This document shows positions 8,258-59,610 of a stretch of 60,717 nucleotides of DNA, piece by piece. The stretch comes from Candidatus Rokuibacteriota bacterium. Lineage in GTDB: Bacteria > Methylomirabilota > Methylomirabilia > Rokubacteriales > CSP1-6. Position 1 is the stretch's first letter; the number at the start of each line of letters is the position of its first letter. The notes beneath the pieces were generated by a model. That model was given only the letters and a program-made list of their open reading frames with translations, was not told the origin of the DNA and made no database searches. The stretch lies in contig QHSR01000039.1 in the NCBI GenBank assembly GCA_003221635.1, positions 1 to 60,717 on the forward strand, read 5' to 3'. The position numbers and the translations under genes were made by a program.

Positions 8258-10060
8258 GATGGTCGGGGAAAATTCATCGCGTCCACGAAGATCTCCTCGA
8301 AGTCGGGATGCGCCGCGAGCGAGACGTGCTCGATTCGCCGCGCGATGGTCTCGGCCCGAGCGCGCTCGGTCTCCGAGAGCAGGCAGAGCTGCGCGCCGAG
8401 CGAGGCGGCGTTGCCGACGTAGCGGATCCGCTCGGGCGGCAGCGGCGGAATGAGCCCGATCCGCAGCGCGCTCTCGATCGACACGTAGTTGCCGAAGCCG
8501 CCCGCCAGCATCAGCTCGGCGACCCGTTCCGGCGGCACGCCGGCGACACGCTGGAGCATCGCGACGCCCGAGGCGATCGCTCCCTTCGCCAGCTGGACCT
8601 GCCGAACGTCGTCCTGGGTCAGCACGATCTCCTGGCGCGCTCCGGCCTCGCCCGGCCGGAGCACGACGACCTGACGCTCCTCGCCGCGCGCGACGACCCG
8701 GTCCCGCAGCCGCGGCGGGAGCGCCTCGCGCGCGTCCGAGCGCGGCCGTCTCGCCGATCGTGTGGACGCGGATGTCGCCGTCCACGGTGACGCGGTCGAT
8801 GGCGCCGAGCGCCCCGCGCATGCCGTGACGGATCTGGGCGCCTTCGAGCGCCGGTCCCGCGGGCGCCGAGCACGCCCAGAGACGGTCGCGCGAGCCCAGC
8901 AGCACCTCCCCGTTGGTGCCGATGTCGACGGCGATGCGCACCTCGGCGCTCTCGTAGATGCGGGTGGCGAGCGCGACCGCGACGGCGTCGGCCCCGACGA
9001 ACCCCGCCACCAGGGGCAAGAGGCACACTCTCGCCTCCGGCGCGACCTTCAGGAAGAGCTCGCGGGCCGAGAGGGTCAGCGCGTGGCGCATCACTGGCGC
9101 ATACGGCGCGAGGCCGACGTGCGATGGATCGATGCCGAGCAGGATGTGATGCATGCACGTGTTGCCGACGACGACGACCTTGTAGATCCACTTCGCCAGC
9201 ACGCCGGACTCGCGGCAGATCTGCTCGACGTGCTGGTTGAGGAGGCCGACGATCCGGGTGTGGAGCTTTCGCAGATTGCCGGGATTGAACTGCGCGAAGG
9301 CGATGCGCGACATGAGGTCGCCGCCGAAGACCGCCTGGGTATTCAGACTCGAGACCGACGCGAGCTGCTCGCCCGAGTCGAGCTCGATCAGCGTCGTGAC
9401 CACGCTGGTCGTGCCGATGTCGATCGCGAGGCCGAACTTCATCCCGGCGGTGTCGCCGCGCTCGACGGCGAGGATCCGCTGCCGGCTCTCCGGCGCGCCG
9501 CCCGACGCAAACGTCGCCACGGTCACGCCGGCGGGGTCGTCGCGGAGCGCCTGCGGCAACCCCTGGAGCACCGCGGGGCCGATGTCGGCGGTGGTGAGGC
9601 CGACGGCCTCGAGGAGCTGCTCGAGGTCGGACGTCTGGTGATGCTCCTCGCGCGGCAGCGTGACCTTGACGACCTGCTTGGCGACGCCGGAATCGAGGGT
9701 GATCCGGCCGAGCTGCCGGACGCCGCGCCCGGCGCCGAGGATCTGGAACGAGCGTTCCTCGAGCGGCGGCGCGAGCTGAACGGTGACGGGCTCGTGGAGG
9801 ACGCACTGGCAGGAGAGACGATATCCCTCGCGGACGAGGTCGTCGCCCAGCTGAACCTCGTCCATGAGCGTCGGCGGCGGCGGCAAGCCCGCCAGGAACT
9901 TGACCCGGCACGAGGTGCACCGGCCGCGCCCGCCACAGGTCGCGATGATGTCGACGCCGCCCGCGTGCGCCGCCTTGAGAATCGTGGTGCCGGGCGCAAC
10001 GCTGAGCGTGCGGCGCTCGGCGTCACCGGGAGCGTGGAGGATCGTGAGCGCGACGGCCAT
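8254..10060 (-). pseudogene. RACo-like ASKHA protein with [2Fe-2S] domain, frame broken near 8735
   Basis: Such proteins reactivate Co(II) corrinoid proteins using ATP and an iron-sulfur domain. The N-terminus is a plant-type [2Fe-2S] ferredoxin: ATCGGRGRCTSCRVKF near residues 40-55 and a fourth Cys in LSCQCV near 84. The ASKHA ATPase part begins FGLAIDIGTTSVVTTLIELD near residue 207 and has VAVDIGTNGEV-type phosphate motif further on. After HTIGETAALG the frame shifts and resumes as VVVLRPGEAG ... LMLAGGFGNYVSIESAL to the stop at 8254. About 25-30 residues, including the usual CGSGL-type motif, are missing. TAGAAT (10074-10069) lies 8 nt before the ATG, with no ribosome-binding site. Confidence 0.8.
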
Positions 10061-10091
10061 GGCGTCTCATTCTAGTGGTATGCTCGCGCCG

Positions 10092-10224
10092 ATGGAAATA
10101 GGCGTGGAGACCCTGCGGCGCATGGCCGCCCTCGGCGGGTTCGTCTGGACCGACGCCGAGCTCGAGTCGATCCGGCCCGCCGTCGAGCGATCTCGAGCCG
10201 ACGACGCAGTATCGGATGTTCTGA
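10092..10224 (+). pseudogene. AtzG-like small amidase-partner protein, frame broken
   Basis: The ATG at 10092 opens a product starting MEIGVETLRRMAALGGFVW, with a helix TDAELESIRPAVERSRA. This resembles the short GatC/AtzG-like proteins found just before amidases. The usual C-terminal TTQYRMF ending is present immediately before TGA at 10222-10224 but in a different frame, so about 15 codons are missing near 10197. TATGCT (10079-10084) ends 7 nt before the ATG without a ribosome-binding site. It is directly followed by the amidase gene and diverges from the RACo-like gene. Confidence 0.6.
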
Positions 10225-11661
10225 GTGACCATGCGGAGCGCCGAGACGAACGAGCTCTGCTGGCTCTCCATGGCGGACCTCGGGCGGATGATCGCGACCA
10301 AGGAGGTCTCGCCCGTCGAGGTCGTGCGGGCTCACCTCGACCGTATCAGCGCCCTCGACGCGAGGCTCCGCGCGTTCATCACGGTCTGTGCCGATAGCGC
10401 GCTCCAGTCGGCCCGCGCGTCCGAGGCCGACCTGATGGCCGGCAAGGTCGCCGGACCGCTCCACGGTGTGCCCTGGGCGCCCAAGGACCTCTACTCGACG
10501 AAGGGCGTTCGCACGACCGGCGGCTCCAAGATCCTCGGCGACTCGGTACCGGCGGCGGACGCGACGGTCGTGGCGCGGCTCGGCGCGGCCGGCGCGATCG
10601 TGCTCGGCAAGCTGAACATGCACGAGTTCGCGTACGGGCCCGAGGGGCTCAACGCGCACTATGGCGACGCGCGGAACCCGTGGGACGCGCGCGCTCATCG
10701 CATCACGGGCGGCTCGTCCTCGGGCTCGGGGGCGGCCGTGGCGGCAGGTCTCGCGCCCGGGTCCCTCGGCTCGGACACGGGCGGCTCGATCCGCATCCCG
10801 GCCTCGCTCTGCGGCATCACGGGGCTCAAGCCGACCTACGGGCGGGTCAGTCGAGCCGGCGTGCTGCCGCTCGCCTGGTCGATGGACCACGTGGGACCGA
10901 TGACGCGCACCGCCCGGGATTGCGCGCTGATGCTGAACGCGATCGCCGGCTACGATCCGGCCGACCCGACCACGAGCGTGCTGCCGGTGCCCGATTACAC
11001 CGCGGCGCTCAGGGGCGATGTGAAGGGTCTTCGGGTGGGCCTCCTGTGCGCTCACTTCACGGACGTCGCGACCGCCGAGGTGCGCGCGGCCGTGGAGGCG
11101 GCGGCCGAGCAGCTCGAGCGGGCCGGGGCGATCCTCGACGAGGTGAACCTCGCCGGGGTCCTCCACGTTGCCGCCGCGTCCTCCGCGATCGTGGCCTCGG
11201 AGGCGCTCGCGTATCACGCCGGCTGGATGCGCGCCCGTCCCCAGGACTACCAGCCAGACGTCAGGGAGCGGCTCCGGATGGGCGCGTTCGTCAGCGGCGC
11301 CCACTACGTGCGCGCCCAGCAGCTGCGCGCCCTGGTGCGCTCGGAGATCGATGACGCCCTCGCCAAGCGCGACGTGCTCCTGGCCCCGGCGACACCGATC
11401 CCGGCGCCGGTCCTCGGCGAGCGTGAGACGACGCTCGGCGACGGCACGTCGGATGTGCGCGCAGCGTTGATCCGTCTCACGCGGCCGTTCAACTACTCCG
11501 GCCACCCGGCCGCCGCGGCGCCGTGCGGCTTCACGGCAGGCGGGCTCCCGATCGGGCTTCAGATCGTGGGGCGGCCGTTCGACGAGGCCACCGTGCTGCG
11601 CGTCGTCGACGCCTACCAGCGGCTCACTGACTGGCACACTCGCCGTCCGTCGGCCGCGTGA
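10225..11661 (+). CDS. Amidase signature-family hydrolase (AtzF/GatA-like)
   Basis: A 478-residue Ser-cisSer-Lys amidase. The catalytic lysine lies in [10 protein letters not shown] near residue 82. The amidase signature [14 protein letters not shown] near 162-175, then [16 protein letters not shown] supplies the two serines. Length and the small AtzG-like gene just upstream resemble GatA/AtzE-type amidases, which need a small partner subunit. GTG at 10225 directly follows the upstream TGA; an ATG at 10231 is an alternative. Without gatB nearby this is more likely a catabolic or biosynthetic amidase than a tRNA amidotransferase subunit. Substrate unknown. Confidence 0.88.
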
Positions 11662-11686
11662 GCGCCGCCGGTCTTCGGAGGACCCG

Positions 11687-12097
11687 ATGAGCGAAGCGAA
11701 TGTGGGCGGGCGGCTCGCGGCGCTCGAGGCGCGGCTCGGCCGGCTCGAGCAGCTCCTCGCCGCCATCAACGACAAGCTCGATGGCGCGGCCCCCAATCTG
11801 GACGAGACCAGGCGCGGGATCCAGGCCTGGGTGACCGAGTACGTGTCGCTGCGGCTCCAGCAGCTCGTCCCGGAAACGTGCGGGCATCCCGAGCGCGAGG
11901 CGGAGACGATCATCGCCGAGGGGCCCGTGCTGCCGGGAACGCGCATTCGCTGCACGGAGGAGGTCATCCATCGGCTCGGTCGCATTCCGATCCCGTTCGT
12001 CCGGCAGATGGTGACGCAGAAGGTCGCCGAGACCGCGCGTGCCGAGAGCGTGGGCCTGGTGGACGTGCCGTTCTTCGAGCGCGCGGCGACCTTCTGA
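11687..12097 (+). CDS. PCP_red-domain protein (protochlorophyllide-reductase C-terminal-like)
   Basis: The 136 codons to the TGA at 12095-12097 encode an N-terminal coiled coil (LAALEARLGRLEQLLAAIND) and a C-terminal segment CTEEVIHRLGRIPIPFVRQM followed by VTQKVAETARAESVG. The latter resembles the small PCP_red domain named after light-independent protochlorophyllide reductase but also found in non-photosynthetic bacteria, where its role is unknown. GGAGG stands before the ATG at 11687. Codon usage stays strongly coding in the same frame for 25 codons beyond the TGA, so the stop is suspicious (see 12098-12175). Confidence 0.5.
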   Translation: MSEANVGGRLAALEARLGRLEQLLAAINDKLDGAAPNLDETRRGIQAWVTEYVSLRLQQLVPETCGHPEREAETIIAEGPVLPGTRIRCTEEVIHRLGRIPIPFVRQMVTQKVAETARAESVGLVDVPFFERAATF

Positions 12098-18305: not shown

Positions 18306-19520
18306 ATGGCTGCCCTGATCTGCGAGGTCGTGTACCGCGGTATCTTTCAGAAGAACCTTGCCGCGCGCATCACGCGCGGGATCGTGCTGTCGGCGCGCAA
18401 GTCGGGCCGATGGGGCATCGCGTTCGGCCGGTACGGCGACAGCCCCCAGCGAAACGGGATCCCCGCGAAGGACTTCGCGATCGTCGCCGACACCAAGGAA
18501 GAGCTCGAGCAGAACATGGCACGCTACGAGCCCAAGCACGTGGACGTCACGATCGCCGTGGACGACACGCTGTCGAAAGGCGTCGAGTCGTGGGCGTGGT
18601 ACGGGCTGCAGCCGATCAATCGCCTCACGGTGCCGAACGGTACGCTCCTGATGACGTCGCTCCAGAGCTTCGACAGCCTGCTGAAAGACATCCACAAGAA
18701 GGACGCGCCGTACAAGCTGGCGCTCCTCCGCGCCAAGGCGTCGTTCTCCGGGCTCTGGGTCTACAAAGAGGACCACACCGAGGTCCGGATCTTGGGCGCC
18801 CTCGCGAAGATCGCGCCGTCCTTCCTGACCCTCGACGCGGTCGGCCAGGCCATCCGGGAGATGGAGTGGGGCTCCGACCTCAAGGTCGAGTCGGCGAAGA
18901 AGGCGTACGAGCGACTCGAGTCGCGCGAGGTCAAGCTGACCGAGGGCAACGCCGAGATCCCGTACTCGTTCGAGATGCCCAAGTGGTGGGAGATGCGGGA
19001 GGGCGTGACCATTCCGGCGATCCCGGTCGGTAAGCCGAAGGAGGACGGCAAGGGGTATGTGCCCGAGCGCAACCCGTACTTCAAGAAGTTCACGACGCGG
19101 ACGATGCGGCCCGTCGTCGACTTCGACACGTGCGTTAAGTGCACGCTCTGCTGGATCCAGTGCCCCGACTCCTGCTTCGACGTCATGCCCGACGGGACCT
19201 ACGACGCCAACATGGAGGCGTGTTGCGGCTGCGGCGTGTGCGAGGCGGTCTGCCCGGTGGAGCACTGCATCACCATGGTCAACGAGTCGGTGTTCGACGA
19301 CAACGCGAGCCAGTGGGAGATGTGGCGCAAGGACAAGAGTGCCTACAAGGTCTGGATGACGTCGAAGATCGGCGACAAGAACGCGACCGTGCGCTCCCAC
19401 GGTTTCCGGTTCCGTGGCCAATACGAACAGGAGCTCGAGAAGAACCTCGATGGCGGCGGTGTCGAGATCGCCGCCGGCATCCCGGGCGAGAACGCGCAGC
19501 ACAAGACGATCAAAGGGTAG
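18306..19520 (+). CDS. Fused gamma-delta subunit of a 2-oxoacid (probably oxalate):ferredoxin oxidoreductase
   Basis: The 404-residue product joins a gamma-type domain (about residues 1-190) to a delta ferredoxin domain. The latter has two 4Fe-4S motifs, CVKCTLCWIQCP near 276 and CCGCGVCEAVCP near 305. The gamma part keeps the GRYGDSPQRNGIPAKDFAIV region but lacks the usual Gly-rich GGQG-type loop near the N-terminus. A gamma-delta fusion with separate alpha and beta is the arrangement of Moorella oxalate oxidoreductase. GAGGAGG precedes the ATG at 18306. First gene of a three-gene operon that ends at a strong terminator. Confidence 0.85.
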   Translation: MAALICEVVYRGIFQKNLAARITRGIVLSARKSGRWGIAFGRYGDSPQRNGIPAKDFAIVADTKEELEQNMARYEPKHVDVTIAVDDTLSKGVESWAWYGLQPINRLTVPNGTLLMTSLQSFDSLLKDIHKKDAPYKLALLRAKASFSGLWVYKEDHTEVRILGALAKIAPSFLTLDAVGQAIREMEWGSDLKVESAKKAYERLESREVKLTEGNAEIPYSFEMPKWWEMREGVTIPAIPVGKPKEDGKGYVPERNPYFKKFTTRTMRPVVDFDTCVKCTLCWIQCPDSCFDVMPDGTYDANMEACCGCGVCEAVCPVEHCITMVNESVFDDNASQWEMWRKDKSAYKVWMTSKIGDKNATVRSHGFRFRGQYEQELEKNLDGGGVEIAAGIPGENAQHKTIKG

Positions 19521-19630
19521 GGCGAGCCGCAGGCGAGTCGAGTCGATGAACGGGGCAGTGCGGACCTCTGGATTTCGCGGGGCTGGGGCCCCGCCGTCCG
19601 AGGCGAGTGAATGAACGGAGGACCAGCGCA

Positions 19631-20863
19631 ATGGCGGTTGTGACCCAGGCGGCTCCGGCCGTCCACGAAGAGGACAAGGAACTCCTGATCTCCGGCAGCG
19701 AGGCCGTCGCCGAGGCGCTCACCCTCGCCGACCTCGACGTCGTCACGGCCTACCCGATCCGGCCGTACGACACCGTCATGCAGGCGATCGCCAAGAAGAT
19801 CTCGGGCGGCCAGCTCGTGGCCGAGTACATCGTGGCCGAGGGCGAGCACAGCCAGTTCGAGATCGTCAAGCACGCCTCGACGGTCGGCGCGCGCGTCTTC
19901 TGCGGCTCGTCCGGCGTCGGCTGGATGTACGCCATGGAATGCCTCGTCGTGACGCCCCCGCTGCGGGTGCCGATGGTGGCGCTCGTGGGCAACCGTGCCC
20001 TCGACGATCCGGGCGCCTTCGGGGTGGAGCACAACGACGCGCTCGTCGTGCGCGACCTCGGGTGGCTGCTCTGCTGGATCGACACTTCCCAAGAGGCGCT
20101 CGACACCACGCTGATCGCCTATCGGGTCGCCGAGGACCGGCGCGTGTTCCTGCCGCTGGCGATCTCGGCGGACGGCGCGTTCCTCACCCACTCCCAGGCG
20201 CTCACGATGGTGCCGCCGAAGTCGAAGGTCGACCGGTTCCTGCCGCGCTACGACCGGGGCGACCTCCTGCTGCACCCCGACAACCCGATCACCGTCGCGC
20301 CCCAGGCCAACGAGGACTGGGTCATCGAGATCCGTCGCCAGAACAACGAGGCGATGGCGCGCGCCGTGGGCGTCATCGAAGAGGCATACGCCGACTTCCG
20401 GCGCGTCTTCGGGCGCGGACCCGAGAACCCGTGGTTCGAGGAGTACATGGCCGCCGACGCCGACGTGATCCTGGTCGGCATGGGCACGATCTCGCTGCCG
20501 ATCAAAGTGGCGATCCGCGAGCTGCGCGCCAAGGGCAAAAAGGTCGGCCTCGTGCGGCTCCGCTGGTTCCGGCCGTTCCCGACCGAGCGGCTGGTCGCTG
20601 CGCTCTCGAAGGCGAAGGCGGTGGGAATCATCGACCGAGACTATTCCTTCGGCTCGCCGTTCGGGTCGGGCGTGGTCGCCAACGAGATCCGCGCGGCCCT
20701 GTATAATGCCGAGCGGAGGCCGCCGCTCCTGTCCTTCATCTGCGGCCTGGGCGGACGCGAGGTGACACTCGAGGACGTCTACAAGGCTACGGACCTCTGC
20801 TACGCAGCCGCAACGGCCGGGAAGTCCGACACCAAGACCCACTGGCTGGGCGTTCGGGAATAG
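19631..20863 (+). CDS. Alpha subunit of a 2-oxoacid (probably oxalate):ferredoxin oxidoreductase
   Basis: The 410-residue PorA-type subunit binds the substrate next to the thiamine cofactor. In pyruvate enzymes the motif is YPITP; here it is AYPIRPYDT (Arg44). Tyr41, Arg44, Arg122, Asp125 and Phe130 match, at one constant offset of 13, residues I recall as Tyr28, Arg31, Arg109, Asp112 and Phe117 of Moorella oxalate oxidoreductase. That supports oxalate cleavage to two CO2 with electrons going to ferredoxin. GGAGG precedes the ATG at 19631. The 110-nt gap upstream holds an imperfect direct repeat around ATGAACGG (near 19542 and 19611). Confidence 0.82.
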   Translation: MAVVTQAAPAVHEEDKELLISGSEAVAEALTLADLDVVTAYPIRPYDTVMQAIAKKISGGQLVAEYIVAEGEHSQFEIVKHASTVGARVFCGSSGVGWMYAMECLVVTPPLRVPMVALVGNRALDDPGAFGVEHNDALVVRDLGWLLCWIDTSQEALDTTLIAYRVAEDRRVFLPLAISADGAFLTHSQALTMVPPKSKVDRFLPRYDRGDLLLHPDNPITVAPQANEDWVIEIRRQNNEAMARAVGVIEEAYADFRRVFGRGPENPWFEEYMAADADVILVGMGTISLPIKVAIRELRAKGKKVGLVRLRWFRPFPTERLVAALSKAKAVGIIDRDYSFGSPFGSGVVANEIRAALYNAERRPPLLSFICGLGGREVTLEDVYKATDLCYAAATAGKSDTKTHWLGVRE

Positions 20864-20874
20864 GAGAAGCCACC

Positions 20875-21906
20875 ATGGCCGAGACGACCACGTTCAGCAA
20901 CGCCACGCAGATCCTCGAGCCCTTCCGCGGCGTCAAGCGGGTCACGATCGAGGAGTACTTCACCTCCGGGCATCGGACCTGTCAGGGGTGCGAGTCCGCG
21001 CTGGTCATGAAGCTCATGGTGAAGGCGGCCGGCCCGCGCACGATCGTGCTCGGCTCGACCGGATGCATGTACGTCGCGAACACGACCTATTACACGACGC
21101 CCTGGGTGGTGCCGTGGATGCACACGCAGCTCGGATCGTCCGGATCGGCGGCGCTCGGGACGGCGGCGGGGCTCAAGGCCCTGATGCGGAAGGGTAAGAT
21201 GAAGTCCGAGCCGATCAACGTCATCGCGTTCTGCGGCGACGGCGGCGGCGCCGACATGGGCATCGGCGCCATCTCGGCGACCCTGACCCACAAAGAGTAC
21301 AACTCGCTGATCCTCCTCTACGACAACGAGTCGTACGCCAACACCGACATCCAGCTCTCCGGGATGACGCCGTACGGCGCCAACACCACGTTCAGCCCGC
21401 CCGGCAAAGTGAAGCGCCTCATCCACACCCGGTGGAAGAAGAACATGGCGGGCATGCTGGCGGCGGGGCACACGGAATGCCGCTACGTGGCGACGGTCTG
21501 CGCCTCGTATGCCGTGGAGATGATGAACAAGGTGCGCCGCGCGCTGACGATCGGCGGCCCGACGTTCATCCACTCGCTGGATCCGTGCCCGAAGGGCTGG
21601 GACTACGACCCGATGCTCTCCCACGAGCTGGGCGAGCTGGCGATCGAGACCGGGATCTTCCCCCTCTACGAGGTGGAGGACGGCCAGGTCACGTACTACG
21701 GCAAGACCAAGGCGATCGTCGAGGGGCGTCCACGCAAGCCGGTCCGCGAGTATCTGCTCAAGCAGGGTCGCTTCGCGCACTTCATCGAGGAGGATCTCGC
21801 GTACTTCCAGGCGAAAGTGGACGAGATGTGGGAGAAGTGGGAGATTCCGGCGGTGGTGCCGTTCCGCCGCCTGGACGCGACGAAGGCGGCGCTGTCAGCG
21901 AAGTAA
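20875..21906 (+). CDS. Beta (TPP-binding) subunit of a 2-oxoacid (probably oxalate):ferredoxin oxidoreductase
   Basis: The 343-residue PorB-type subunit binds thiamine diphosphate through FCGDGGGADMG (near 119-129) and DNESYANT (near 149-156). A proximal 4Fe-4S cluster is expected from CQGC (near 38-41), GSTGCMYV and VCASY. TAGGAG stands before the ATG at 20875, 11 nt after the alpha stop. The operon order gamma/delta, alpha, beta matches other oxalate and 2-oxoacid oxidoreductases. A strong terminator begins 45 nt after the stop. Confidence 0.9.
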   Translation: MAETTTFSNATQILEPFRGVKRVTIEEYFTSGHRTCQGCESALVMKLMVKAAGPRTIVLGSTGCMYVANTTYYTTPWVVPWMHTQLGSSGSAALGTAAGLKALMRKGKMKSEPINVIAFCGDGGGADMGIGAISATLTHKEYNSLILLYDNESYANTDIQLSGMTPYGANTTFSPPGKVKRLIHTRWKKNMAGMLAAGHTECRYVATVCASYAVEMMNKVRRALTIGGPTFIHSLDPCPKGWDYDPMLSHELGELAIETGIFPLYEVEDGQVTYYGKTKAIVEGRPRKPVREYLLKQGRFAHFIEEDLAYFQAKVDEMWEKWEIPAVVPFRRLDATKAALSAK

Positions 21907-21950: not shown

Positions 21951-21990
21951 GGGCCGGGCTCCCGTGAAACGGGACCCGGCCCTTTCGTGT
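21951..21990 (+). terminator. Rho-independent terminator after the oxidoreductase operon
   Basis: GGGCCGGG-c-TCCCGT pairs with ACGGGA-CCCGGCCC around a GAA loop: a 14-bp stem with one bulged base, followed by TTTCGTGTT. It separates the oxidoreductase operon from the tct genes. Confidence 0.85.
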
Positions 21991-22011
21991 TCCATACTTC
22001 GTGTTCCATAC
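21984..22011 (+). repeat. Perfect 14-bp tandem duplication
   Basis: TTCGTGTTCCATAC occurs twice head to tail (21984-21997 and 21998-22011), starting in the T-rich tail of the terminator. AT content is higher than around it. It may be replication slippage or a regulator half-site array upstream of tctC. Confidence 0.8.
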
Positions 22012-22070
22012 GTGGACGTATCCCAGCACGACATGGACCCGAGACCTGGCCTCGGGCAAAGGAGCGAGCG

Positions 22071-23051
22071 ATGAAGCTCGACACCGTTGTCGCCCGCGTT
22101 CTCGCGCTGCTGATCGTCATCCCCGCCTCCGCGGCCGCCTGGGAGCCGACCAAGCCGATCGAGTTCGTGGTGCCGGCCGGGACCGGCGGTGGCGCCGACC
22201 AGATGGCGCGCCTGATCGCCGGCATCGCCGAGAAGCACAAGCTCTCCCCCCGTCCGCTCATCGTCGTCAACAAGGCGGGCGGGGCCGGCGCCGAGGGGTT
22301 CCTCGACATCAAGGGCAAGAAAGGCGACGCCCACACCATCATCATCACGCTCTCGAACCTGTTCACGACGCCGCTGCACACCGGCGTTCCCTTCAACTGG
22401 AAGGACCTCACACCGATCGCCCGCATGGCGCTGGACCAGTTCATCCTCTGGGTCAACGCGGAGACGCCGTACAAGACGGCGAAGGACTACATTGCGGCCG
22501 TGAAGGAAAAGATGGGGAAGGCCGACCAGATGAAGATGGGGGGCACCGGCTCGGCGCAGGAGGACCAGATCCTCACGATCCAGCTCGAGCAGGCGCTCGG
22601 ACTCAAGTTCACCTACGTGCCGTTCAAGGGTGGTGGTGAGGTCTGCGTCAACCTCGTCGGCAAGCACGTCGATTCGACCGTCAACAACCCGATCGAGTGC
22701 GTGAGCCACTGGAAGGCCGGGCGCGTCCGTCCGCTCGCCGTCTTCGATACCGCACGAATCCCCGTCGGCGAGTGGAAGGAAATCCCGACGGTCAAGGAGG
22801 CGCTCGGCGCCGACGTGAACTATCTGATGCTACGGGGGATCTTCGGCGCGCCGAGCATGCCGAAGGAGGCGGTGGAATGGTACGTCGCCTTCCTCAAGAA
22901 GGTCAGCGAGACTCCGGAGTGGAAGAAGTACACGGACGACGGCGCGCTCAAGCCCGCCTTCGCCACCGGCCCCGAATACGTGAAGTGGGTGGAGGAGAAC
23001 GAACAGCTCCACAAGGAACTGATGGCCAAAGGGGGCCTGCTGAAGAAGTAA
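22071..23051 (+). CDS. tctC: TctC-type periplasmic substrate-binding protein (TTT transporter)
   Basis: A 326-residue Bug/TctC receptor. Residues 1-23 form a signal peptide (VLALLIVIPASAAA, then WEPTKPI). FVVPAGTGGGADQMARLIA is the first ligand-binding loop, and NKAGGAGAEGF and GGTGSAQEDQ follow as in carboxylate-binding members. AAAGGAG precedes the ATG at 22071. It delivers carboxylates to TctB/TctA encoded next. Placed after an oxidoreductase for a 2-oxoacid, it may import that acid, but the ligand is unproven. Confidence 0.92.
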   Translation: MKLDTVVARVLALLIVIPASAAAWEPTKPIEFVVPAGTGGGADQMARLIAGIAEKHKLSPRPLIVVNKAGGAGAEGFLDIKGKKGDAHTIIITLSNLFTTPLHTGVPFNWKDLTPIARMALDQFILWVNAETPYKTAKDYIAAVKEKMGKADQMKMGGTGSAQEDQILTIQLEQALGLKFTYVPFKGGGEVCVNLVGKHVDSTVNNPIECVSHWKAGRVRPLAVFDTARIPVGEWKEIPTVKEALGADVNYLMLRGIFGAPSMPKEAVEWYVAFLKKVSETPEWKKYTDDGALKPAFATGPEYVKWVEENEQLHKELMAKGGLLKK

Positions 23052-23052
23052 G

Positions 23053-23514
23053 ATGCGCGTCGCCGACCTCGCCACCGCGTCGGTCTTGATCCTGCTGGGC
23101 GGGGTCGTGGTCTTCGACTCGATACGGATCGGCATCGGGTGGGGAACGGACGGACCCAAGAGCGGATTCTTCCCGTTCTGGCTCGGGGTGATCATGATCG
23201 CGACGTGCGTCGCGATCATCGCGCGGGCCTGGCGCCGCTCGACCGACACGCCGTTCGTGACGCGCGCGCAGCTCGTTCCGGTGCTCAAGGTGCTCTGGCC
23301 GGCCACGCTGATGGTGATCCTGGTCAAGCCGCTGGGGCTCTACGTCGCCTCGGCCCTCTACATGGGGTTCTACATGCGCTGGGTCGGTCGGCACGGCTGG
23401 GTCGTGGTGGCCCTCTGCGCGATCGGCGTCCCGGTGCTCACGTTCCTGGTGTTCGAGACGTGGTTCCTGGTGCCGATGCCCAAGGGCCCGCTCGAGGCGT
23501 GGCTGGGCTACTGA
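23053..23514 (+). CDS. tctB: TctB-type small membrane subunit (TTT transporter)
   Basis: A 153-residue protein with about four hydrophobic helices (VLILLGGVVVFDSI, FFPFWLGVIMIATCVAIIA, LYVASALYMGFY, VALCAIGVPVLTFLVFETWF), the layout of TctB. It sits one nucleotide after tctC and 3 nt before tctA, the normal order of the transporter. The sequence of TctB proteins is poorly conserved, so the call leans on topology and position. Confidence 0.9.
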   Translation: MRVADLATASVLILLGGVVVFDSIRIGIGWGTDGPKSGFFPFWLGVIMIATCVAIIARAWRRSTDTPFVTRAQLVPVLKVLWPATLMVILVKPLGLYVASALYMGFYMRWVGRHGWVVVALCAIGVPVLTFLVFETWFLVPMPKGPLEAWLGY

Positions 23515-23517
23515 CCC

Positions 23518-25038
23518 ATGGGCGTCGAGAACCTCCTCCTCGGATTTCACATCGCGATCACGCCCTTCAACCTCTTCGTCGCGGTCGTCGGCATCACGCT
23601 CGGCACCGTCATCGGTGTCCTGCCCGGGCTCGGGGGCGCCAACGGCGTCGCGATCCTGCTGCCCCTCACGTTCACGATGCCACCCACCTCGGCGATCATC
23701 TTGTTGACGTCGCTCTACTGGGGGGCGCTCTTCGGGGGCGCGATCACGTCCGTGCTGTTCAACATCCCGGGCGAGCCGTGGTCGGTCGCGACCACCTTCG
23801 ACGGCTATCCGCTGGCGCGGCAGGGGAAAGGCGGCCAGGCGCTCACGGCGGCCTTCACCTCGTCATTCGTCGGCGCCCTCTTCTCGATCGTGCTCATCAC
23901 CTTCTTCGCGCCGCTTCTCGCGGAGATCGCCCTGCGCTTCGGCCCGCCGGAGTTCTTCGCGATCCAGCTCCTGACCTTCTCGAGCTTCATCGGGCTCGGC
24001 GGCGGCGATCCGCTGAAGTCGCTGGTGTCCATCGTCCTCGGGTTCGTCCTCGCCGCCGTGGGCCTCGACATCGTCACCGGTCAGCTCCGGATGACGTTCG
24101 GCTTCATCGACCTCATGAAAGGGTTCGACTTCATCGTGGCGGTCATCGGGCTCTTCGGAGTCGGCGAGATCCTCCTCAGCGTGGAGGAAGGGCTCAGCTT
24201 CCGGGGCATTGCGACGGGAATGAACCTCCGCGTGGTGCTCGACACCTGGAAGGTGCTGCCGCGCTACTACCGCACGTTCGTGCGCGGAGCCTTCATCGGC
24301 TTCTGGATGGGATTCAAGCCGGGCGGCGCGACGCCCGCCTCGTTCATGAGCTACGCCTTCGCGAAGCGCTTCTCGAAGCACCCGGAGCGGTTCGGCACGG
24401 GAGAGCTCGAGGGCGTCGTCGCGCCGGAGACGGCGGCCCACGCGGCGGGCGTGGCGGCGATGCTGCCGATGCTCACGCTCGGCATTCCGGGCTCGCCGAC
24501 GGCGGCGGTCATGCTCGGCGGCCTCATCATCTGGGGGCTCCAGCCCGGACCGCTCCTCTTCACGGAGAAGCCCGACTTCGTCTGGGGGCTCATCGCCAGC
24601 ATGTACACCGGCAACATCATCGGCGTGCTGATGGTCCTGGCGTTCGTGCCCTTCTTCGCCGCGATTCTCCGCATTCCATTCGCGATCCTCACGCCGCTGA
24701 TCGTCGCCGTCTGCGCGATCGGCTCGTACGCGGTGCACAACAGCATGATCGACATCTGGTACATGCTGATCTTCGGCGTCGTCGGCTACGTGTTTAAGAA
24801 GCTCGACTATCCGCTGGCACCGCTCGTCCTGGCGCTGGTCCTCGGCGATCTGGCCGAGAACGCGCTCCGCCAGAGCCTGATCATGTCCCAGGGATCGCTG
24901 GCGATCTTCGTGACGCGACCGATCGCCGGCGCGATCACGGCGGTCGCGATCTTCTTCTTCGTGTTGCCGGTCGTGACGCCGTGGTGGCGCCGGCGGCGCG
25001 GAACGCCCCTGCCGACCGCCTCGCTGCGGGAGACGTGA
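23518..25038 (+). CDS. tctA: TctA-type large permease subunit (TTT transporter)
   Basis: The 506-residue permease has about twelve helices and both family signature loops: VLPGLGGANGVAILLPLTF near residues 35-53 and PMLTLGIPGSPTAAVMLGGL near 318-337. Loops like these line the substrate path in TctA. Stop TGA at 25036-25038 overlaps the next ATG, so terC is translated from the same message. Full length, no damage seen. Confidence 0.95.
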   Translation: MGVENLLLGFHIAITPFNLFVAVVGITLGTVIGVLPGLGGANGVAILLPLTFTMPPTSAIILLTSLYWGALFGGAITSVLFNIPGEPWSVATTFDGYPLARQGKGGQALTAAFTSSFVGALFSIVLITFFAPLLAEIALRFGPPEFFAIQLLTFSSFIGLGGGDPLKSLVSIVLGFVLAAVGLDIVTGQLRMTFGFIDLMKGFDFIVAVIGLFGVGEILLSVEEGLSFRGIATGMNLRVVLDTWKVLPRYYRTFVRGAFIGFWMGFKPGGATPASFMSYAFAKRFSKHPERFGTGELEGVVAPETAAHAAGVAAMLPMLTLGIPGSPTAAVMLGGLIIWGLQPGPLLFTEKPDFVWGLIASMYTGNIIGVLMVLAFVPFFAAILRIPFAILTPLIVAVCAIGSYAVHNSMIDIWYMLIFGVVGYVFKKLDYPLAPLVLALVLGDLAENALRQSLIMSQGSLAIFVTRPIAGAITAVAIFFFVLPVVTPWWRRRRGTPLPTASLRET

Positions 25039-25736
25039 TGGCGATCCTGGCCGACCCGGAATTCTGGATCCGTCTCGTCGGCATCGGCGCGCTCAATCTC
25101 CTCCTGTCCGGCGACAACGCGCTGGTCATCGCCCTGGCGGTGCGCGCCCTGCCCAAGCGAAAGCGTCTGCTCGGTCAGATCTGGGGGGCGCTGGGGGCGG
25201 TCGTGCTGCGATTGATCTTCGTTGCGGTCATCAGCGTGCTCCTCAAGATTCCGTTTCTCCAGCTCGTCGGTGGGATACTCCTCGTCTGGATCGCCGTCAG
25301 GCTCGTCCGGCCGGAGCTCGGGGGCGAGAGTAACATTCGGCACGGTACCTCGCTGTGGGAGGCCATCTGGGTCATTATCGTGGCGGACGTGACGATGAGC
25401 CTCGACAACGTGCTGGCGATCGCCGCCACGGCACACGGCGATCTCTTACTCGTCATGTTCGGGGTCGGGCTCTCGCTTCCGATCGTCATCTGGGGCGCCG
25501 GCGTCCTGGCTCATCTCATGAATCGCCACGCGTGGATCGTCTGGCTCGGTGGAGGCCTCCTCGGCTATGTCGCGGGCGAGATGATGATGGACGACCCGGT
25601 CATCCGCCGATGGATGGGCGACAACGCCGCGGCGCTCCACTATCCGGTGCCGATCGCGATGGGGCTCGTGCTCACGGGGCTCGGCTGGTGGTTCGGTCGG
25701 CGCCACCCTCACGTCCACGTCCCGGAGAACCTCTGA
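25038..25736 (+). CDS. TerC/YjbE-family membrane protein
   Basis: A 232-residue protein with about seven helices. Two acidic membrane motifs, LSGDNALVIAL near residue 22 and MSLDNVLAIAATA near 121, are the TerC-family signature; characterised relatives export Mn2+ or support metal loading of secreted enzymes. A His-rich tail (RRHPHVHVPENL) could bind metal. The ATG overlaps the tctA stop (TGATG). Why a metal exporter is coupled to a carboxylate transporter is unclear. Confidence 0.85.
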   Translation: MAILADPEFWIRLVGIGALNLLLSGDNALVIALAVRALPKRKRLLGQIWGALGAVVLRLIFVAVISVLLKIPFLQLVGGILLVWIAVRLVRPELGGESNIRHGTSLWEAIWVIIVADVTMSLDNVLAIAATAHGDLLLVMFGVGLSLPIVIWGAGVLAHLMNRHAWIVWLGGGLLGYVAGEMMMDDPVIRRWMGDNAAALHYPVPIAMGLVLTGLGWWFGRRHPHVHVPENL

Positions 25737-25743
25737 GGTCTCG

Positions 25744-26509
25744 ATGAGCGTGCCCGGGCGCCGGAAGGCCGGGGGGGAGCCGGCGGACCATGCCATCGGG
25801 CTCGACCCGATCAAGTCCACGCGGATCTACGAGGAGATCGTACGCCAGGTCAAGCAGCTGATCGCAGACGGGCGCCTCAAGAGTGGCGATCGGCTGCCGC
25901 CCGAGCGGGAGCTCGCCGAGAAGTTCGTCGTCAGCCGCACCTCGGTACGCGAAGCGCTGCGGGCGCTTCATCGAGATCCGTCCGGGCGAGGGCACGTTCG
26001 TCCGCCAGGTGTCGATCGACGCGCTGGTCGCCCCCTTGGCCCTCGTGATGACGTCGCAGCGGGAGGCGATCGGGGAGCTCTTCGAGGCCCGGCGGCTCCT
26101 CGAGCCAGCCATCGCGGCCCTCGCGGCCAGTCGCGCCACGCCGGAAGAGGTCCAGGAGATGGAACGGATCCTCGACGATCAAGCGCGGGAAGTCGCGGCC
26201 GGGAGGACCGGGCTCGCCCAGGACGCCGCCTTTCACACCGCGATCGGCACAGCCGCCCACAATCGCGCGATCACGCGGATCGTGCACGCGATCATGGACC
26301 TCTTGACCCAGAGCCGTGAGGAGTCGCTCAACACGCCCGGCCGCCCCACGCGCTCGCACCAGGACCATCGCCGCATCCTCCAGGCGATCGCGCGACGCAA
26401 TGCCGCCGCCGCGCGACAGGCGATGCTCGACCACATCGTCGCGGTCGAGGGGCTCGTGCACGGCAGGACGCCGGAGCGCGGCGAGGGCGGCCGGCGCGCG
26501 GGCGCTTGA
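25744..26509 (+). pseudogene. FadR-subfamily (FCD) GntR regulator, frame broken near 25967
   Basis: The N-terminal winged helix (IVRQVKQLIADGRLKSGDRL, PPERELAEKFVVSRTSVREA) is in one frame up to LRAL; FIEIRPGEGTFVRQVSID and the all-helical FCD ligand domain are in another, to the TGA at 26507-26509. FCD ligand residues include the Asp in LAQDAAFHTAIG and His in SHQDHRRI. Only about 4-5 codons of the wing are missing, so this looks like a small deletion. It is the only FCD regulator in the window and a candidate for binding the TGGTCNGACCA sites at 18243 and 40366. If the break is an assembly error the gene is intact. Confidence 0.8.
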
Positions 26510-55364: not shown

Positions 55365-58265
55365 ATGAAGCGACGCGACTTCTTCAAGATCGTGACGGCG
55401 TCCGGCGCTGCCGCGGCGACTGGCGGCTGCCAGCAGGCCACCGAGTCCATCCTGCCACTCGTCGTCCCGAACGAGCAGATCGTGCCGGGCGTCGCCTCGT
55501 GGTTCGCGACCGTCTGCCGCGAATGCCCGGCTGGCTGCGGCGTCCTCGCGAAGAACCGCGAAGGGCGCATCGTGAAGCTCGAAGGAAATCCGGACCATCC
55601 GGTCAACGCGGGAGCCCTCTGCCTGCGCGGGCAGGCCGCGCTCCAGGGCCTCTATCATCCCGATCGGGTCGCGGGTCCGCTCATGCGCGAGGGGAGCGGC
55701 TCGTTCGCGGCGGCGACGTGGGAAGCGGCCGAGAAGCTCGTCGCCGAACGGATCGGCGCTCTGCGAATCGCCGGGAAGGGTCGCGCGATCGCCCTCGTGT
55801 CGCAGCTCGAGAACGGAAGCCTCGGCGTGCTGCTCGACCGGTGGAGCGCGGCGCTCGGGGCGCGTCCGAGAGTGACGCTGGAGCCGTTCGCCTACGAAGC
55901 GATCCGGGCGGCGAACCGGAGCACGTTCAATCGCGACGCGATCCCGTACTACGCGTTCGAGGATGCCGAAGTGGTCCTGTCCTTCGGCGCCGACTTCATC
56001 GAGACCTGGCTCTCCAACGTGAACTACGCGCGGACGTTCGCGCGGATGCATTCGTTCAGGGACGGGCGGGCGGGGACGTTCATCCACGTCGAGCCCCGGC
56101 AGTCGCTGACGGCGTCGAACGCCGACGAGTGGGTCCGCAACGCCCCCGGGACCGAAGGGCTGCTCGCCCTCGCGATCCTCCGGGTGATGGTGGACGAGGG
56201 GATGGTGGACCGCCGCTACGGCGAGGCCGTCGCCGGCATCGACCTCAACCGGGCCGCGGACACGAGCGGCGTCGGCCTGGAGACGATCAAGCACGTCGCG
56301 AAGGTGTTCGCCCACGCCCAGCCCGGGCTCGCCGTCGGCGGCGGCGTCGCGGTCACCGGCTCCAACGCGACCGAGTCACAGATCGCGATCAATCTGCTCA
56401 ACGCGGCGGCGGGTAACGTCGGCAAGACCGTGCGCTTCGGCCCGGATTCGGCCTACGGCAAGGTCACGCCGCACACGGAGGTCGCCGCGCTGGCGCGCGC
56501 GATGGGCGGCGGCGAGGTCGAGGTCCTCGTCCTGGGTCCGGGTGTCAACCCCGCGTTCACGCTCCCGTCGGGCCTCAAGCTCGCCGACGCGATCCGCAAG
56601 GTGCCGTTCGTCGTCAGCTTCTCGAACGTGCCCGATCAGACCAGCGAGCTGGCGCAGGTCGTCCTGCCCGACACTCACTGGCTCGAGTCGTGGGGCGATT
56701 ACGCGCCGCGTGAGGGCGTGCTCGGTCTGCTCCAGCCGACGATGGCGCCGATCCGTGATTCCCGGCCCATGGGCGACATCCTCCTCCGCATCGGCCGCGC
56801 CGTGCTCGGAACCGAGGCGGGCAAGGGACCACTGCCGTGGCCGACCTTCGAGCGGTATGTGAAAGCCGCGTGGGAGCCCGTCGTGAAGGGAGCGCTCGAA
56901 GGGGCGCTCCGGCGCGGCGGCCTCTTCACCGACGTCGCGCCGGTCGCCGTGACGGCGAAGATCGCCCCGGTGGAACCGTCTCCGGCGAAGCTCGAGGGCG
57001 ACGCCGGCGGTTTCACGCTCCTCGCCTATCCGTCGCTCCGCTTCTACGACGGTCGGAGCGCCGTCAGCTCCTGGCTCCAGGAGGCGCCCGACACGATGAC
57101 GCAAGCGGTGTGGGACGCGTGGGTCGAGATCCCGGCGGAGACGGCTGGAAAACTCGGCATTGCCCAGGGCGACATGCTCGCGATCAAGTCGCCCCAGGGG
57201 AGTCTCGAGCTGCCCGCGTATATCTCGTCGACGCTTCATCCCGGCGCGATCGCGATTCCGATGGGTCACCGTTACGCGCCCTACCAGCGGCCGCGATACG
57301 TCGGGGCCGACCCGCGCTCCCTGAACCCGATGGCGATCCTGCCGGCCGCGTCCGACGCGACCTCGGGCGCGCTCGCGTTCATGAGCGTGAAGGTGACCAT
57401 CGCAAAGCTCGGCACGCGTCGCCCGCTCGCCGTGCTCCAGGCGACGCACGACCAGGACCACCGCGAACTGGCGCAGCACGTGGACCTGGGCGCGGCCCGC
57501 GAGCAAGCGCTGCGAGGCAAGCCGCCGCACGGGGCGCCCATCAGCATGTACCCCGACACGCAGTACCCGGGCCCCCGCTGGGGTATGGCGATCGACGTCG
57601 ACGCGTGCGTGGGCTGCCAGGCGTGCGTGGTCGCCTGCCAGGCCGAGAACAACGTTCCGGTGGTTGGCAAGGCCTCCGCGGCGTACGGGCGCCAGCTGCA
57701 CTGGCTCCGCCTCGAGCGCTGGGCGGAAGGGAAGCCGGAGCGGCCGACGCATCTGTTCCTGCCGATGCTCTGCCAGCACTGCGAGGTCGCGCCCTGCGAG
57801 CCCGTCTGCCCCGTGTACGCGGCGTATCGGACCGACGAGGGGCTCAACGGACAGGTCTACAACCGCTGCGTCGGGACACGCTACTGCGGCAACAACTGCC
57901 CGTACCATGTGCGCCGCTTCAACTGGTTCCAGTACGAGTTCCCGGCGCCACTCGAGGTGCAGCTGAACCCCGACGTCACCGTCCGCCAGCTCGGCGTCAT
58001 GGAGAAGTGCACGATGTGCGTCCAGCGCATCATCGCCGGCAAGGATCGGGCGCGCGACGAGAAGCGCGGGGTGCGCGACGGCGACATCGTCACCGCCTGC
58101 CAGCAGACGTGCCCGACTCAGGCGATCACCTTCGGCAACCTGAAGGACGACGCCAGCGCCGTGACCAAGCTCACCCACTCGCCCCGGGCCTACCACGTGC
58201 TCGAGGAGGTCGGCACGCGACCGTCCATCACCTATCTCCGGAAGGTCGTCCGGGAGCACGCGTGA
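55365..58265 (+). CDS. actB: Alternative complex III molybdopterin-like/iron-sulfur subunit (ActB)
   Basis: A 966-residue fusion. It starts with a twin-arginine signal KRRDFFKIVTASGAAAATGG followed by Cys, a possible lipoprotein site. An Fe-S motif CRECPAGCGVLAKNREG and a molybdopterin-oxidoreductase-like domain without evident cofactor residues occupy residues 40-680. A ferredoxin domain follows with CVGCQACVVACQAEN, CQHCEVAPCEPVCP, CVGTRYCGNNCPY and CTMCVQRIIAGKD ... ACQQTCPT. Domain order and size are those of ActB. It faces the periplasm and carries electrons from the membrane subunits. Confidence 0.95.
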   Translation: MKRRDFFKIVTASGAAAATGGCQQATESILPLVVPNEQIVPGVASWFATVCRECPAGCGVLAKNREGRIVKLEGNPDHPVNAGALCLRGQAALQGLYHPDRVAGPLMREGSGSFAAATWEAAEKLVAERIGALRIAGKGRAIALVSQLENGSLGVLLDRWSAALGARPRVTLEPFAYEAIRAANRSTFNRDAIPYYAFEDAEVVLSFGADFIETWLSNVNYARTFARMHSFRDGRAGTFIHVEPRQSLTASNADEWVRNAPGTEGLLALAILRVMVDEGMVDRRYGEAVAGIDLNRAADTSGVGLETIKHVAKVFAHAQPGLAVGGGVAVTGSNATESQIAINLLNAAAGNVGKTVRFGPDSAYGKVTPHTEVAALARAMGGGEVEVLVLGPGVNPAFTLPSGLKLADAIRKVPFVVSFSNVPDQTSELAQVVLPDTHWLESWGDYAPREGVLGLLQPTMAPIRDSRPMGDILLRIGRAVLGTEAGKGPLPWPTFERYVKAAWEPVVKGALEGALRRGGLFTDVAPVAVTAKIAPVEPSPAKLEGDAGGFTLLAYPSLRFYDGRSAVSSWLQEAPDTMTQAVWDAWVEIPAETAGKLGIAQGDMLAIKSPQGSLELPAYISSTLHPGAIAIPMGHRYAPYQRPRYVGADPRSLNPMAILPAASDATSGALAFMSVKVTIAKLGTRRPLAVLQATHDQDHRELAQHVDLGAAREQALRGKPPHGAPISMYPDTQYPGPRWGMAIDVDACVGCQACVVACQAENNVPVVGKASAAYGRQLHWLRLERWAEGKPERPTHLFLPMLCQHCEVAPCEPVCPVYAAYRTDEGLNGQVYNRCVGTRYCGNNCPYHVRRFNWFQYEFPAPLEVQLNPDVTVRQLGVMEKCTMCVQRIIAGKDRARDEKRGVRDGDIVTACQQTCPTQAITFGNLKDDASAVTKLTHSPRAYHVLEEVGTRPSITYLRKVVREHA

Positions 58266-58269
58266 GACG

Positions 58270-59610
58270 ATGAGCGACGGCCGGACCACGTCCCCCACGT
58301 TCGCCGACGTCAACCGCGACGTCCTTCGCACGCTGGACCCGCCGGGGAACCTCTACTTCGCGTGGATGTGTGTGGTCGCGCTCCTGCTCGCCGGATTCTT
58401 CGCCGCGTGGGCCGGGCAGGTCTGGTGGGGCATGGGCATGGCCGGCAAGCGCGTGCCCCAGATGTGGGCGATGTACATCACGACCTTCGTGTTCTGGATC
58501 GGCATCGGCCATGCCGGCACCCTGATCTCGGCGATTCTCTACCTCTTCCGCGCCCGCTGGCGCACGTCGATCTACCGTGCCGCCGAGGCCATGACGATCT
58601 TCGCGGTGATGACGGCGGGCCTGTTCCCGCTGATCCACGCCGGACGCATGTGGTTCGCGTACTTCCTGCTGCCGTACCCGAACCAGCGTGATCTCTGGCC
58701 AAATTTCCGGTCGCCGCTCGTCTGGGACGTGTTCGCGATCTCGACGTACCTCTCGATCAGCACCGTCTTCTTCATCGTGGGGCTCGTCCCGGACATCGCC
58801 GCCCTGCGCGACGCGTCCCGCGGCTGGCGCCGCCGCATCTACGCGATGCTGGCGCTCGGGTGGGAGGGCGCCGACACGCAGTGGCGCCATTATCGGCGTG
58901 CCTACGGCCTGCTCGCGTCGCTGGCGACGCCGCTGGTCCTCTCCGTCCACAGCGTCGTGTCGTGGGACTTCGCGATGGCGCTGGTCCCCGGCTGGCACTC
59001 CACGCTCTTCGCGCCGTTCTTCGTCGACGGGGCGATCTTCTCCGGCTTCGCGATGGTGCTCATCCTGGCCCTGCCGATGCGCCACTTCTTCCGCCTGCAC
59101 GCCTACATCCAGGAGAAACACCTGGACGCGATGGGGAAGCTGATCCTGGTCACCGGCCTGGTCCTGACCTACTTCTACCTGTGCGAGATCTTCACCTCGC
59201 TCTACAGCGGCGAGCACATCGAGAAGGCGTCGCTCTTCTGGAAGGTGACCGCCAACTACGCGTGGGCGCTCTGGACCATGTACTTCTGCAACTGCGTCGC
59301 GCCGCTGGTGCTCTTCTGGCGGCGGGCCCGCACGAGCCCGGTCGTGCTGTACATCGTGTCCATCCTGGTGCTGATCGGAATGTGGTTCGAGCGGTTCAAC
59401 ATCATCGTCCCATCGCTCGGACACGACTTCTACCCGTACACGTGGGGCATCTATTATCCGAGCCCGACCGACACGATGATCGTCATCGGCAGCTTCTCCT
59501 TCTTCTTCCTCCTGTTCCTCGGCTTCATCAAGGTGATGCCGTCGCTCTCGATCGTGGAGGTGAAGGAGACGATCCCGCCACCCGTGCGGGACCGGGCCCA
59601 TGGCCACTGA
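58270..59610 (+). CDS. actC: Alternative complex III NrfD-like membrane subunit (ActC)
   Basis: A 446-residue protein with about ten helices. Typical ActC features are FAWMCVVALLLAGFFAAWAG in helix 1, ITTFVFWIGIGHAGTLISAI with the conserved His/Glu region near 75-95, and SVVSWDFAMALVPGWHSTLF near 235. ActC is a proposed menaquinol-binding subunit. ATG at 58270 lies 4 nt after actB and its end overlaps actD by 11 bp. Confidence 0.94.
   Translation: MSDGRTTSPTFADVNRDVLRTLDPPGNLYFAWMCVVALLLAGFFAAWAGQVWWGMGMAGKRVPQMWAMYITTFVFWIGIGHAGTLISAILYLFRARWRTSIYRAAEAMTIFAVMTAGLFPLIHAGRMWFAYFLLPYPNQRDLWPNFRSPLVWDVFAISTYLSISTVFFIVGLVPDIAALRDASRGWRRRIYAMLALGWEGADTQWRHYRRAYGLLASLATPLVLSVHSVVSWDFAMALVPGWHSTLFAPFFVDGAIFSGFAMVLILALPMRHFFRLHAYIQEKHLDAMGKLILVTGLVLTYFYLCEIFTSLYSGEHIEKASLFWKVTANYAWALWTMYFCNCVAPLVLFWRRARTSPVVLYIVSILVLIGMWFERFNIIVPSLGHDFYPYTWGIYYPSPTDTMIVIGSFSFFFLLFLGFIKVMPSLSIVEVKETIPPPVRDRAHGH

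Follow-up and report, generated by a model that had tools for sequence, protein, structure and literature searches.

The 60,717-nucleotide contig QHSR01000039.1 of a Candidatus Rokuibacteriota bacterium (assembly GCA_003221635.1), hereafter referred to as the window, carries on its forward strand three adjacent genes that probably encode an oxalate oxidoreductase (OOR) of a second class, with oxalate as its main substrate; judging from sequence, we give this reading a probability of roughly 0.78. The enzyme represents a sister class and is not a member of the described OOR family. It was assigned to oxalate because the two clades share ancestry, substrate-facing arginines and oxalate-transporter neighbours, and because its gamma subunit is unlike that of pyruvate:ferredoxin oxidoreductase (POR). 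The three subunit open reading frames (ORFs) at 18306–21906, which an earlier reading of the DNA (the original prediction) had described as an OOR, are all present in the ORF list. They comprise a 404-residue fused gamma/delta subunit (18306–19520, +), an alpha subunit (19631–20863, +; 410 residues from an ATG, or 418 residues from a GTG at 19607) and a 343-residue, thiamine pyrophosphate (TPP)-binding beta subunit (20875–21906, +).

Relationship to known oxidoreductases

The window enzyme has the same subunit set as the OOR of Moorella thermoacetica (PDB 5c4i, 5exd and 5exe; NF045790–NF045792), to whose alpha subunit its own is only about 42% identical. In a search against solved structures, alpha matched the Moorella enzyme (5c4i_A) at 319 bits as compared with 207 bits for Pyrococcus POR (9bt4_B), and beta gave 297 bits for 5c4i_C against 213 for 9bt4_C. 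The best match of the gamma/delta subunit was 5c4i_B (E 7.8e-18), with 68 bits versus 43 for POR. OOR was also the top NCBIfam model for all three subunits; the second-best model for alpha was PorA_Arch, at 324.5 bits (cut-off 550). With POR (PDB 9bt4; PorA_Arch) the enzyme shares the superfamily, the subunit types and the TPP and Fe–S residues.

Three trees were built for alpha: a quick one of 89 rows, a careful one of 72 rows (obtained from the 89 by dropping ten outgroup rows that were long or odd and seven near-copies), and one of 46 rows that includes six PadG-like sequences. None of them contains KorA-type rows. In all three, the window clade and the OOR clade were each supported at 99–100, and their union was split from the remaining rows at 100; in the 72-row tree, the two clades (each 100/100) stood apart from 24 PITP-type rows at 100/100. 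The window enzyme fell outside the OOR clade and was its sister when the 72-row tree was rooted on the PITP rows, a relation that presumes a root among the remaining rows. Members of the window clade in the 89-row tree included Rokubacteria, Acidobacteriota, Myxococcota and two Bacillota metagenome-assembled genomes (MAGs). The original prediction had let its case depend on such a tree, and alpha was found outside both the pyruvate-type and the PadG-like clades, as sister to the OOR clade. A 2-oxoglutarate-type enzyme had likewise been named as an alternative; the best structure match of this type was weak (8ys5_A, 28.6 bits) and NF007206 gave 48.9 bits (cut-off 579), so that membership in the 2-oxoglutarate:acceptor oxidoreductases was rejected.

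The NADH-dependent phenylglyoxylate dehydrogenase (PadG family) resembles the window enzyme at the level of the superfamily only. That the enzyme oxidises arylglyoxylates such as phenylglyoxylate is extremely unlikely: alpha does match the PadG model at 271.6 bits, but the cut-off is 700, and the six PadG-like rows, which carry YPISP, form a clade away from both the window and OOR sequences. Membership in this family was accordingly rejected. These YPISP alphas (L253–L258) come from six genomes of the window's own family, score 380–396 bits against the model and lie on a separate, long-branched clade; none of the 95 genomes of the phylum examined has a PadG match over the cut-off.

Active-site residues and the gamma/delta subunit

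Residues Y41, R44, R122, D125 and F130 of alpha (ATG numbering), which the original prediction had picked out, align without a gap to Y28, R31, R109, D112 and F117 of 5c4i chain A and are invariant in a 21-row alignment; we presume that Tyr28, Asp112 and Phe117 have roles of their own in OOR. The residue argument thus held for the five positions it named, while it overlooked the gating residue Asp116, whose place in the window is taken by Ala. The constant offset of 13 residues that had been cited with them is correct because the alignment is homologous and gapless, and it was discarded as separate evidence, being a mere consequence of that alignment. The first two of these residues lie in the YPIRPY motif (residues 41–46, Moorella 28–33; 19751–19768, +). 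This motif was found in 52 of 53 window-type alpha rows, that is, in every row covering it, and PIRPY in 37 of 37 OOR rows (Moorella counted apart), where it is preceded by Tyr in 35 and by Phe in 2. The Arg31 position is occupied by Thr in 15 pyruvate-type and 11 farther alpha rows, bearing out the proposed contrast between YPIRP and the pyruvate-type motif, and by Ser in the PadG-like rows. Such a pattern is far beyond chance. Arg109 and Asp112 are likewise kept in all 53 window-type and all 37 OOR rows. Identical rows, the window's own locus and matches spanning fewer than 300 residues were left out of these counts, and rows were assigned to groups independently of the motif, according to which of the window, Moorella and Pyrococcus alphas gave the best BLAST score.

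According to the available excerpts of PMC5020499, Arg31 of the Moorella enzyme binds the negatively charged substrate, YPIRP is the unique motif of that enzyme, and a Sulfolobus 2-oxoacid:ferredoxin oxidoreductase lost most of its activity when its YPITP motif was mutated. The last observation argues against an ordinary ferredoxin oxidoreductase of pyruvate or branched-chain 2-oxoacids in which the arginine is present by chance. We consider this explanation very unlikely; the PorA_Arch score speaks for it, but alpha lies outside the PITP rows, and the neighbouring genes described below occur at none of the POR loci examined. Membership in the POR family was rejected on the lack of YPITP, the lack of a GGQG-bearing gamma subunit and the position outside the POR rows.

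The beta subunit (NF045792; TPP_enzyme_C) retains the TPP and cluster residues of the Moorella enzyme: Asp110, Asn138, Cys24, Cys27 and Cys225 are kept throughout the compared rows, and Gly111 of GDG in 51 of 54 window-type rows. The gamma/delta subunit (Fer4_21) consists of a diverged gamma domain, a ferredoxin-like domain that carries two CxxCxxCxxxC motifs, and an extended C-terminus, and is longer than its Moorella counterpart (404 vs. 315 residues). Its eight cluster-binding cysteines (276, 279, 282, 286, 306, 309, 312 and 316; codons within 19131–19253, +) are invariant in 21 rows.

The GGQG stretch of the POR gamma subunit serves coenzyme A (CoA) binding. It is absent from the window gamma, whose translation was inspected, as it is from the Moorella enzyme. 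When loci were chosen without any gamma motif, an ORF with GxGGQG was located within 4 kb of alpha at 18 of 20 POR loci, 0 of 24 OOR loci and 2 of 50 window-type loci (L022 and L238), and one with Y-x-D-x-P-x-R-x3-P at 0 of 20, 23 of 24 and 49 of 50, respectively. Earlier GGQG counts were set aside, because each type of gamma had been picked by a motif characteristic of it, the POR type by GGQG itself. The gamma–delta fusion, to which the original prediction had also appealed, characterises the window gene and 52 of 55 window-type genes, the remaining three (L022, L051 and L059) belonging to loci in which the gene is in pieces. It is not diagnostic and was discarded as evidence for OOR, since it occurs in fewer than half of the distinct OOR gamma genes (16 of 33, all from the Bacillota search), the other 17 being unfused. 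The true-OOR locus L151, which comes from the Acidobacteriota search, encodes a protein (9978–11810, −; Fer4_20 and Pyr_redox_2) that combines the delta part with an FAD/NAD(P) oxidoreductase, which suggests that this OOR may pass electrons to NAD(P).

Transporters and other neighbouring genes

One gene family, whose three scanned members belong to the major facilitator superfamily (MFS), accompanies the enzyme genes at 8 of the 12 window-type loci analysed and at 3 of the 8 OOR loci. Near window-type genes, all seven proteins scanned exceeded the cut-off (335) of the oxalate/formate antiporter model TIGR04259, with 458.6–531.5 bits; near true OORs, two of three did so (454.2 and 450.5 bits), and the third, a 308-residue piece, gave 270.2 bits. 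One member was compared with solved structures, and its nearest match was the oxalate:formate antiporter 8hpj (220.6 bits), followed by an L-lactate transporter (136.9 bits). The oxalate reading is independently supported by these antiporters beside relatives of the window enzyme. Transporter genes lying up to 4 kb from alpha were then tallied. Loci sharing the same alpha DNA entered as one, giving 59 window-type, 25 OOR and 20 POR loci, and those in which less than 1 kb follows beta were set aside. OxlT was present in 11 window-type loci and TctC, the receptor of a tripartite tricarboxylate transporter (TTT), in 31, with one or the other in 42 of 47; the corresponding values for OOR loci were 6, 4 and 10 of 21. 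The OxlT queries of the whole tally came from L162, L163, L151 and L156, so that these loci match themselves. Neither was detected beside any of 19 POR-type loci, a control drawn from searches around Bacillota and Acidobacteriota genomes, with none from the window's phylum. At a distance of up to 7 kb, with flank length uncontrolled, a GntR regulator accompanies 38 of the 59 window-type loci, 17 of the 25 OOR loci and none of the 20 POR loci. In these neighbours the window type thus resembles part of the OOR clade.

Among Rokubacteria, the loci mostly carry TctC in the place of OxlT, and in L019 (same contig as L236) OxlT directly follows beta. Beta is likewise followed by TctC at the true OOR loci L149 and L190–L193, which come from another family of the same class. 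The window TctC is 63–70% identical to the TctC beside four true OORs, 40–51% identical to that of seven window-type loci, and 27–29% identical to the only other match in its own genome (at E 1e-10). In a TctC tree, the OOR-side and window-side proteins were not cleanly separated, and several forks were weak.

In the window, beta is followed on the same strand by the genes of the TTT receptor TctC (21987–23051; PF03401), which is predicted to bind oxalate, the small membrane subunit TctB (23053–23514; PF07331) and the large membrane subunit TctA (23518–25038; PF01970). Next come a TerC/YjbE-type membrane protein (24981–25736, +), which is also a neighbour in the OOR loci L149 and L192, a GntR/FCD regulator (25744–26509, +), whose family also occurs near window-type and true OOR genes, and PPDK. 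The regulator is split over two reading frames, with the GntR domain in 25744–26316 and the FCD domain in 25883–26506; it is a single frame in all five relatives scanned. The nearest loci belong to Rokuibacteriota MAGs, with alpha identity of up to 97%. A gene family adjoining gamma in 8 of 8 OOR loci (L149, L151, L153–L158) is absent from 12 of 12 window-type loci; the one member scanned (L154:11343–13544, −) is a Cdc48-type AAA ATPase. LldP-type permeases were located near four OOR loci (L153, L155, L245 and L246). Farther along the window (55365–59607), a molybdopterin oxidoreductase of 966 residues is followed by an NrfD-type membrane protein, possibly forming a respiratory complex.

Weighing the oxalate assignment and its meaning for the host

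Several findings weigh against oxalate as the substrate. All three subunits score below the OOR family cut-offs (NF045790 delta, 75.1 of 230 bits; NF045791 alpha, 365 of 500; NF045792 beta, 343.3 of 590). Asp116 of Moorella corresponds to Ala in the window and in every window-type relative that covers the position (52 of 53, the other lacking the column). In profile comparisons, the window-type gamma matched that of OOR at E 7e-16 and that of POR at E 1e-11, and the OOR and POR gammas resembled each other more closely (E 4e-26); gamma alone is therefore no argument for a special kinship between window and OOR enzymes. The window locus has TctCBA and not OxlT, and we know of no TTT that acts as an oxalate importer. 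Neither transporter occurs at 5 of 47 window-type loci (L037, L038, L159, L165 and L235), the scanned neighbours of L165, L038 and L159 showing no oxalate link, nor at 11 of 21 OOR loci. The cut-off of an L-lactate MFS model is also passed by 7 of 10 OxlT-type proteins, at 99–188 bits below TIGR04259. Oxalyl-CoA decarboxylase matches under the cut-off are common in the phylum, the window's genome included (up to 537 bits, cut-off 739), so that a CoA route for oxalate is possible. Lastly, no RuBisCO match was found in the window's genome, which is about 89% complete, leaving assimilation of oxalate carbon unexplained. The identification as an OOR was therefore supported with qualifications, as the enzyme sits in a sister clade outside the OOR equivalog family and has lost Asp116.

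In the available excerpts of PMC5020499, Arg31 and Asp116 serve a bait-and-switch mechanism of the Moorella enzyme. With Asp116 gone, the gate of the window enzyme must differ from Moorella's. The change lies in the loop RALDDPGAFG (residues 122–131; 19994–20023, +), which corresponds to RTLDPPGDFG of Moorella (109–118) and in which Pro113 is also replaced by Asp (Asp126 of the window), as in 53 of 53 window-type rows; Asp116 and Pro113 are both kept in 37 of 37 OOR rows. In beta, the Gly145 position is Asp in 54 of 54 window-type rows (Asp158 of the window, 21346–21348, +, within an NESYANTD stretch that we take to lie at the TPP site) and Gly in 36 of 36 OOR and 16 of 16 POR rows; Gly28, kept in 36 of 36 OOR rows, is replaced by Glu in all 54 window-type rows. 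On their conservation across the clade, alpha Asp126 (Moorella 113) and beta Asp158 (Moorella 145) are candidate replacements for Asp116. The same swaps at alpha 116 and 113, complete in the clade rows that cover them, and at beta 145 would also fit an oxidoreductase that works without CoA on some other small polar 2-oxoacid (mesoxalate, oxamate, glyoxylate or hydroxypyruvate), in which Arg44 would hold a second polar group and the loss of Asp116 would reflect a different substrate. The scores under the OOR cut-offs agree with this, and TctC is a general carboxylate-receptor family. We nevertheless regard it as distinctly unlikely, for both clades have the same transporter families beside them, including OxlT over the cut-off, which all 19 POR loci lack, and the TctC proteins beside four true OORs are 63–70% identical to the window's.

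For an OOR, the following route can be proposed. Oxalate would be imported by TctCBA (by OxlT in some relatives) and would bind TPP on beta, its carboxylates being held by alpha Arg122 and Arg44 (Moorella Arg109 and Arg31). The bound oxalate would lose CO2, and the remaining one-carbon unit would be oxidised to a second CO2. Two low-potential electrons would pass from the beta cluster through the two delta clusters to ferredoxin, and the reaction would proceed without CoA.

Among 95 Methylomirabilota genomes, an OOR-model match exceeded the cut-off in 6 and fell at 328–426 bits in 48, the latter being the window-type band, in only part of which the motif was checked. Genome G003 carries both types on different contigs, a true OOR with TctCBA (L149) and a window-type enzyme (L189). 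Oxalyl-CoA decarboxylase was over the cut-off in 1 and OxlT in 6 of the 95 genomes, scores that cover only the best first-look candidates per genome; the rarity of the decarboxylase over its cut-off speaks for the OOR reading. The window's genome has neither over the cut-off, and its incompleteness makes such absences soft. It has three COX1-family matches, which, taken with the missing RuBisCO match, would suit an enzyme that oxidises oxalate for detoxification or as an electron source for redox balance, and not to support growth on oxalate carbon, which may go unassimilated. This is possible but less likely than not, since the transporter stands within a gene order widely kept among relatives, which argues for active uptake.

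Ferredoxin-linked oxalate oxidation has been characterised in Moorella thermoacetica, as described in the available excerpts of PMC5020499 and PMC11045627. The portions available of two other papers predict that the lineage Thalassonella draws energy from oxalate, with the enzyme unnamed there (PMC10227082), and, for Paraburkholderia terrae, mention the oxalate oxidoreductase route in the footnote of a table (PMC5986945). For YPIRP, only PMC5020499 was found in the searchable text of the literature, and no description of the window-type clade appeared among the papers listed for OOR or for oxalate use in these phyla, supplements and preprints lying outside the search.

From these sequences we tentatively propose, at somewhat less than even odds, a mechanistically distinct OOR class that would be widespread in uncultured soil bacteria (the window's host has terminal-oxidase genes), with the gating acid at alpha 113 and/or beta 145 and a previously unknown TctCBA oxalate importer. 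The clean swap at Asp116, Pro113 and beta Gly145 constitutes a natural experiment on oxalate entry into a TPP enzyme, and TctC is directly testable as an oxalate-binding protein. If the oxalate reading is true, the clade in Rokubacteria, Acidobacteriota and Myxococcota would add an oxalate route without the CoA pathway for abundant uncultured soil bacteria, and would provide them with a testable energy source.

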